A stretch of DNA of 29,735 nucleotides, taken from positions 1 through 29,735 of IMG/VR virus record IMGVR_UViG_3300020187_000145; one strand, written 5' to 3'. The stretch is from a virus. Every line of letters starts with the position of its first letter. The first letter of the stretch is position 1. The position numbers were made by a program, and so were the translations under genes. The notes below the pieces were generated by a model. The model did no database searches, was not told the DNA's origin, and saw nothing but the letters and a program-made list of their open reading frames with translations. Shown here one piece after another: positions 22,388-22,904 of this stretch.

Positions 22388-22904
22388 ACTTCATTCTATT
22401 GGTTCTTTTCAGAAGTTCTCTTACGAGAACTTAATTACTCTTTCACTCCGTTCAATCGTAATTGTTTTTATTTCTAAAGGATTAATTAAAAGTTCTTAAT
22501 GGTAATCTTTAGAAGTCTTATTACTTTTTGAAAGCCATGGTAGTGCTACTCAAGCACTACCACAGAAATTTCAGTTATGTAATCTCATTACTCCCGTCAA
22601 TCCACGTTGATTATCCCCGACCTACTACGTTACTATAGTTGATCGCTACCGGTTGCCCTGTAAAGTTTGCTGGGTTGTAGTTGAGCCTATTACATTAATA
22701 AACGTAATATCTCGGCAACGCATGTTCTATATCATCAAATCAAAATAGATATAGACTCATTGAGGGTTCGCTATCCATGACGATTGCCCTCTCGGTATTG
22801 TTGTGTATAACACACTACTCCAAATCTGTCAGCAGGGTTTCTGCATCCTCGAGGAGAGCCGAGCATTGTATTACGGCTATGCTTATGTACGTTCTATTTC
22901 CCTA
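22388..22904 (-). ncRNA. 517-base gap without genes; candidate structured RNA
   Basis: No frame here looks coding on either strand. By hand count 22591-22910 is about 42% GC, above the AT-rich flank 22388-22590. Perfect hairpins include 22413-22432 (8 pairs), 22538-22562 (10 pairs, loop of 5), 22726-22755 (8 pairs) and 22762-22791 (4 + 6 pairs with a bulge and mismatch). The minus strand is favoured on three counts: the first hairpin is then capped by a GNRA-type GTAA loop, and two other helices (22900-22920; 22623-22631 with 22701-22709) gain G-U pairs where the plus strand has C-A mismatches. No T-tract follows the hairpins, so they are not terminators. It would be the 3' end of the early operon. 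Family unknown. Confidence 0.5.

Follow-up and report, generated by a model that had tools for sequence, protein, structure and literature searches.

The Noncoding Gap Between p58 and RusA

The window considered here, a stretch of 29,735 nucleotides, comprises the IMG/VR virus record IMGVR_UViG_3300020187_000145. The genes of a small conserved protein (p58) and of a RusA-like nuclease converge in it, ending at positions 22387 and 22905, respectively, and thus leave between them a gap of 517 bases (22388-22904). In the original prediction, this gap was described as noncoding and rich in hairpins, with a structured RNA presumed on its minus strand. The extent of the gap proved to be exact, no conserved reading frame was found within it, and the hairpins are present; a search of the window for tRNA and tmRNA genes returned none. 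The minus strand of the region 22388-22930 folds with -141.7 kcal/mol, compared to -114.4 +/- 5.75 for shuffled sequences (z -4.75; none of the 100 shuffles match), while z for folding of the plus strand is -3.32. An elevated G+C content at 22591-22910 had been pointed out as well, and the value itself is real (42.8% vs 30.0% in 22388-22590), but it is unremarkable because 619 of the 2942 windows of 320 nt from the same contig are equally rich. The helix supposed to enclose about 300 bases, ATTATCCCC (22610-22618) with GGGGTAAT (22918-22925), fared worse: its letters exist, but the pairing is not conserved (the three tested pairs form in 22, 50, and 44 of 100 relatives), the second arm falls within the RusA gene, and the element is longer, about 450-480 nt. 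Features of the locus are collected in Table 1.

Table 1. Genes and RNA features at the locus (window coordinates; RNA elements are given from the 5′ to the 3′ end)
Feature	Position	Strand	Basis or remark
gp46-like (SbcC) gene, upstream of RusA	24511-26301	-	
RusA-like PD-(D/E)XK nuclease gene, 5′ neighbor	22905-23480	-	
Whole RNA	22413-22883	-	Conserved block of clade A and helices; ends (5′ about 22883, 3′ about 22413) estimated from structure
P0, 5′ hairpin	22857-22883	-	Stem sequence varies among relatives with pairing kept; by eye
5′ domain closed by CUCC/GGAG	22818-22856	-	Near invariant in clade A; CCCG/CGGG in clade D
Core, model R1	22645-22799	-	Covariation; 157.1 bits in the window, the model including a sequence from this same phage
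P1, 5′ arm UACCG	22793-22797	-	Partner at 22647-22651; alignment fold and covariation
P2 hairpin	22762-22791	-	Consensus fold and covariation
P3 hairpin	22724-22756	-	Changes on both sides in 10 of the 11 pairs of the helix
Signature CGUUG ... UUACAG-GG-CAACC	22651-22720	-	GUUGC/GCAAC forms helix P4, covarying
P5 hairpin	22683-22713	-	Length and sequence variable
Conserved unpaired stretch ACUACA..CC..AAACUUUACAG	22658-22681	-	
P6 hairpin	22618-22645	-	Strong covariation
P8 hairpin (GGUAGUGC/GCACUACC)	22537-22563	-	Near invariant in clade A; different stems in clades B and C
P8b hairpin, loop of GA[AG]CGNAG[CU]GA type	22433-22463	-	By eye
P9, last hairpin	22413-22432	-	No U-rich tail on either strand among relatives
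p58, small conserved protein gene, convergent 3′ neighbor	22211-22387	+	
gp26-like baseplate hub gene	21324-22163	+	

Among the surrounding genes, a radical SAM gene (23498-24514, minus strand) lies between gp46 and RusA and recurs there in other loci; the C-terminal tail of RusA (22905-22960, minus strand, and relatives) has a conserved GACACCA(A/C)GTCAA, corresponding to a DTTS/DTKS-like motif just before the stop codon; and an open reading frame of 1336 aa (17197-21207, minus strand) gives a weak match to a PHROG of unknown function.

Distribution Among Jumbo Phages of Lakes and Seas

Loci resembling that of the window, designated clade A, were fetched with RusA and hub proteins. At 130 of them, representing 75 distinct gap sequences, p58 and RusA converge over 404-668 nt in nearly all cases, four loci having longer gaps of 1212 or 1422 nt, and blastn detects a conserved block in almost all clade A gaps together with a conserved hairpin. 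Extending the search via proteins and two DNA patterns, with matches scored by the covariance model R1 and a nucleotide profile, located the core of about 150 nt in at least 287 loci of viral contigs, a redundant number as several loci derive from one contig; 106 representatives were retained from 153 distinct sequences with full flanks, contributed by 258 of the 287 loci. The RNA is carried by very large (jumbo) phages from lakes and seas at the same genomic spot, and it occurs as a single copy in all 15 clade A records of 200-525 kb.

The RNA follows gp46 and a nuclease gene and is opposed by p58 and the gp26-like hub gene, which converge on it; this arrangement is retained while the neighbors themselves change. 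At 254 of the 287 loci listed, the RNA is preceded by RusA in the same orientation and followed by p58 in the opposite one, and 31 of the other 33 end within 348 nt on the side where the gene is missing. The remaining two are L243, with an inserted gene on a contig shared with L038, and L363, where RusA is missing and a SegE-type GIY-YIG gene takes its place. Rearrangements are also seen on the p58 side: a homing endonuclease sits between p58 and the RNA in L206, a DUF6071 gene is inserted in L038, and p58 is displaced in L134 and L135. Approached from the neighboring genes, the RNA is found in 79 of 80 RusA loci (the best 80 of 288), the contig of the 80th stopping inside RusA, and in 51 of 70 hub loci. 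Of the 19 hub loci left, seven are truncated close to the site (L113, L119, L132, L138, L141, L142, and L151), five belong to the diverged clades described below (L131, L136, L137, L139, and L140), and in seven with flanking sequence (L143-L146 and L148-L150) no RNA was seen.

Covariation and the Coding Strand

The original prediction proposed a covariance model of related phage contigs as a check, and such a model was built for the core. In the underlying alignment A1, 18 of the 30 predicted pairs are changed on both sides, 98.9% of the cells within helices are paired, and covariation scores 0.393, a value that shuffling (0.141) attains in none of 500 cases. When the partner is slid by 1-3 columns, pairing falls to 27-38% (at most 37.8%). 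The number of further pair types (36 vs 34.3 in shuffles) is not above expectation, being reached in 128 of 500 shuffles. The helices are real. RNAalifold applied to 54 clade A representatives (dereplicated from 73 distinct gaps, with gaps above 700 nt in L038, L039, L134, and L135 omitted and columns below 50-60% occupancy removed before folding) yields many compensated pairs. In addition, inspection of clade A sequences by eye indicates covariation in P0 and in the pairs inside the P8b loop (AC/GU vs GC/GC), and the string AC[AC]G is conserved beside the 3′ arm of P4.

The same alignments allow the strand to be assigned. Consensus folds of the two strands have 83 pairs in common, and read on the minus strand these pairs comprise 258 G-U cells vs 73 A-C cells, a strong tendency rather than a probability given that the sequences counted share descent. 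G-U cells would be mismatches on the plus strand; the RNA is therefore assigned to the minus strand, in agreement with the G-U pairs that had been noticed there from the outset. Positions 22413-22883 of the minus strand thus encode an RNA of about 450-480 nt that is noncoding, conserved, and covarying and whose core is organized around helix P4; the initial reading of the gap as a structured minus-strand RNA is supported by strong sequence conservation, covariation, and G-U excess in the homologous gaps.

Diverged Environmental Clades

A conserved noncoding stretch characterizes another group of loci (clade B, L383-L439), from which model R2 was built on 28 aligned representatives (of 31 distinct among 35 sequences). 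With filters off, the clade B RNA is where R1 scores highest at 13 of the 14 loci searched, with E down to 0.0017, and in L433 it ranks second; because these sequences are mutually related, the 13 do not amount to independent tests. Clade C consists of L131 and nine more loci; R2 matches seven of the eight tested with E from 2e-6 to 1.4e-4, and R1 gives no match at the right place. In 22 of the 28 clade B representatives, a SegE gene is found no farther than 800 nt from the RNA on its 5′ side, and each of the 10 clade C loci has SegE as well. Clade B differs in that the 5′-side gene is in reverse orientation and another gene occupies the 3′ side; in clade C, like in clade A, the RNA lies between convergent genes.

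Clade D is represented by one contig (L556) and its near relatives. Inspection of L556 reveals a 5′ domain of clade A type, with P0 followed by CCCGUUGAGG ... GGAUGCUCGGG where clade A has CUCCUUGAG ... GGAUCUGGAG, and a core resembling those of clades B and C with P4 of GUAAC/GUUAC; it is this combination that bridges clade A to clades B and C. The CAAC arm of clades B and C seems to reside within the loop of a G/C-rich hairpin, so that P4 may be a pseudoknot there.

Applied to SegE loci (the best 80 of 599), R2 gives matches in 47 at E<=1 (30 of them at E<=0.01), every one on the same strand as SegE. Most of the matched loci have gp46 upstream and p58 or hub downstream, so that gp46, a nuclease, and the RNA, pointing toward p58 and the hub, form a single gene order of wide occurrence.

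Cultured Phages and the Sequence Signature

The part of the core around P4 can be condensed to a signature on the RNA strand, CGUUG-N15-120-[ACU]AC[AC]G-N1-3-CAACC, which is present in the window, in 83 of 106 clade A representatives, and in 27 of 28 representatives of clade B. It occurs in 13 of 15 exemplars compared to 3 of 2592 background windows, a background that includes RNA copies of the two contigs used, and in 0-2 of 2000 shuffles.

Among cultured phages, the Agrobacterium phage Atu_ph07 has an unannotated stretch (489783-490380) matched by R2 with E 0.028 in its genome and containing, in order, a GCUCU...GAAAG hairpin, a P3-like hairpin, GUUG, and GGGUACAGGACAACCGCC; it probably carries a diverged relative of the RNA. 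In the E. coli phage 121Q, p58 is followed by an 836-nt gap, endonuclease VII, and gp46, and a 792-nt gap adjoins endonuclease VII in the Xanthomonas phage XaC1. The gap sequence of 121Q is found in 42 phage records at 164 places, with 4-5 copies per record in most RaK2-like phages listed (Escherichia, Salmonella, Erwinia, Serratia, Cronobacter, and Pectobacterium). There are four copies in 121Q and five in XaC1, all on one strand. The element of 121Q (KM507819.1; copies at 90331, 192836, 247505, and 326645) is a noncoding sequence of about 520 nt, its paralogues having a common core and differing variable hairpins, and the three copies outside the p58 gap fall within or extend over weakly annotated intergenic regions.

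Whether these multicopy elements belong to the same family has to be weighed on position, strand, and signature, because R2 misses the copies in 121Q and XaC1 and matches these genomes only elsewhere (E 0.04 or worse). They might represent a different RNA occupying the same gap, the family then being limited to environmental phages and perhaps Atu_ph07; the blindness of R2 and the overall difference in sequence speak for this rather unlikely possibility, which bears on how far the family extends and leaves the favored reading of the window untouched. Against it stand the coincidence of the gap, flanked in both phages by p58 on one side and a nuclease with gp46 on the other, and the orientation of the RNA opposite to the p58 strand, as in the window. 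The signature, moreover, matches eight times in the two whole genomes (697 kb), at three of the four copies in 121Q and all five in XaC1 and nowhere else, and the fourth copy of 121Q retains the helix as GUCAU/AUGAC instead of GUUGC/GCAAC. Judging from these features, we favor, with reasonable though incomplete confidence, the assumption that the 121Q family is homologous to the RNA of the window. If the link holds, several copies reside in coliphages growing on laboratory E. coli, making expression, structure, and function directly testable; Sharanji, a phage of the 121Q type, is recorded on E. coli K-12 MG1655.

Other candidates were set aside. A match of R1 in PA5oct (E 0.052, filters off) lies inside the annotated hub gene and is not convincing, model matches in Phosso and SCTP-2 have E 0.3 or worse, and the signature matches in Phosso (four) and one of the two in Atu_ph07 look like chance. 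Blastn of the elements from the window, L117, L090, and L383 against phages detected no relative, nor did that of the L117 element against plasmids. The DNA pattern also occurs in 64 bacterial or archaeal contigs; none of them match R1, and these occurrences are therefore ascribed to chance. Long unannotated stretches at the equivalent RusA-side place are found in the Sinorhizobium phage Phosso (L154:4987-6000) and in PA5oct (L153:4479-5141), sharing GGUGUAA..GGGCUAG by eye and matching no model.

Comparison With Known RNA Families

No match to Rfam 15 reaches the gathering score in the window, in a set of 20 loci, or in a set of 12 loci including clade B. Allowing E up to 10 in the window region 22300-23000 adds just four chance-level matches, and only sub-threshold ones appear in L646, L647, and L557 up to E 1. 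Specifically, cmscan matches neither GOLLD, ROOL, IMES, tmRNA, nor group I models, which had been named as families to be checked. Resemblances to RNase P RNA, tmRNA, and a 16S mimic were considered by eye and dropped; with tmRNA, RNase P RNA, and group I introns the element shares the property of being a long folded RNA, but cmscan of the element matches none of them up to E 10. A literature search found no paper describing the RNA, as judged by titles and abstracts; it may, we assume, be listed as an unnamed motif in the catalogue published for putative structured RNAs of viruses and phages. Term searches in the article on CBB (PMC5259590) and in that on Atu_ph07 (PMC6102473) met no mention of non-coding or intergenic elements or Rfam in the former and of noncoding RNA in the latter.

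Set against Rfam 15, the RNA is filed as a new family of a known kind, the large structured RNAs that phages encode and whose function is unknown. ROOL and GOLLD are of this kind, being large phage-encoded noncoding RNAs with extensive covarying structure (PMC12286853). The ROOL studied there measures 659 nt and many GOLLD RNAs exceed 800 nt, and these RNAs are often located near tRNA islands (PMC12286853). The RNA of the window is shorter (about 450-480 nt), has no Rfam match, and lies by gp46 and a nuclease gene, in two contigs about 50-70 kb or more from tRNA clusters. In one of these (G002), the RNA is at 162 kb and the tRNA cluster at about 230-256 kb; in the other (G003), the respective positions are 294 kb and about 226-241 kb.

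OMEGA/HEARO and RAGATH-18-derived RNAs are structured RNA partners of nucleases. The present RNA is like them in adjoining a nuclease gene, but here unrelated nuclease families swap, some copies are without a nuclease neighbor, and no guide segment was seen in the RNA.

As to the contigs themselves, more than 40 tRNA genes per cluster are found in G002 and G003 (L525-L527 and L544-L545). G002 (IMGVR_UViG_3300032675_000001; 361 kb, RNA-carrying) also encodes a permuted tmRNA (L518:19004-19268; RF04321, 85.5 bits; also alpha_tmRNA), which hints at an alphaproteobacterial link.

Expression Signals and Possible Function

The RNA strand is noncoding, the longest stop-free run per sequence having a median of 50 aa; a small reading frame starting from ATG after P8 was rejected, its peptide length varying between 2 and 64 aa. 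Promoters and terminators were sought for the RNA with no convincing result: the late promoter TATAAATA is upstream of the RNA in none of the 106 representatives, TATAAA occurs there in 21 of them vs 21 in shuffles, and sigma-70-like sites near the RNA are at chance level. On the plus strand of the window, P9 reads as a terminator-like site. Nevertheless, it is not called a terminator because 91 sequences show no U-rich tail on either strand (mean 2.4 vs 2.3 U in 8 nt).

Across the clades, the RNA stays while the 5′-side gene (RusA-like, SegE GIY-YIG, or endonuclease VII), the 3′-side gene, and their orientations change. No fixed partner gene is left across all clades, and for this reason a trans-acting RNA fits best: comparison of the sequences suggests that the locus is probably an independent RNA gene rather than the leader or tail of one neighboring gene. 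Such an RNA would be made during infection, fold into a stable scaffold, and act, alone or in complex with protein, on a factor of the infected cell or the phage, as is assumed of ROOL and GOLLD. Binding or assembly would take place on the conserved core, and the variable hairpins may add specificity. A bolder proposal, which we regard as tentative and would not yet favor, envisages one ancient RNA with a (possibly pseudoknotted) GUUG/CAAC core belonging to the conserved gene set of a jumbo-phage supergroup from lakes, oceans, soil, and enteric hosts, expanded to 4-5 copies per genome in the enterobacterial branch and operating as an RNA machine (scaffold, RNP, or ribozyme) for host takeover. 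If true, a core phage function would be carried by RNA rather than protein. Large folded phage RNAs of unknown function are few, and the one described here is a new member kept by very divergent jumbo phages, marking a positionally conserved noncoding gap in published phage genomes.

The location of the RNA also permits a cis-acting role, namely that of a structured 3′ UTR, processing site, or transcription barrier stabilizing or ending the messages of RusA and p58. Its position between convergent genes in clades A and C, the common strand with RusA in 254 of the 287 loci listed, the terminator-like appearance of P9 on the plus strand, and the placement of the clade A RNA at the 3′ end of the gp55/gp47/gp46/RusA run are compatible with this role. 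It appears unlikely, though, given the replacement of RusA in L363, the genes inserted or moved on the p58 side, the reversed 5′-side gene and different 3′-side gene of clade B, the location of the extra 121Q copies between same-strand genes, and the lack of a U-rich tail at P9. Still less credit can be given to a DNA element, such as a replication origin, recombination site, or packaging site, whose inverted repeats would mimic RNA helices. Recombination genes do adjoin the gap and the hairpin sequences are conserved; however, a strand-specific G-U excess is not expected for DNA, the multibranched core and the unpaired conserved stretches are not cruciform-like, and in the two contigs inspected the extremes of cumulative GC skew are about 40 and 100 kb distant, so that an origin is not supported by skew. 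We hold this reading to be the least probable of all.

RusA and endonuclease VII are resolvase-type enzymes; for SegE, this would be a guess. Could the RNA then be the partner of the neighboring nuclease, in an RNA-guided or RNA-regulated resolvase module? A nuclease does occupy the 5′ side in most syntenic loci, be it RusA-like in clade A, SegE in clades B and C, or endonuclease VII in 121Q and XaC1, and the R2 matches in SegE loci all share the SegE strand. Yet these nucleases are unrelated families that alternate, the 121Q copies at 192.8 kb and 247.5 kb are not beside them, and the association is explained by the shared gene order with gp46 and p58. An RNA-guided SegE in particular is disfavored because in six cultured phages possessing SegE the gene is not followed by a long noncoding gap. 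A partnership with the nuclease is accordingly judged very improbable, and an RNA acting in trans remains the preferred reading. With regard to annotation, genes of the SegE GIY-YIG type are labeled 'NAD synthetase' in many cyanophages (e.g., AY939844.2, 176711-177148) and in PHROG 447.
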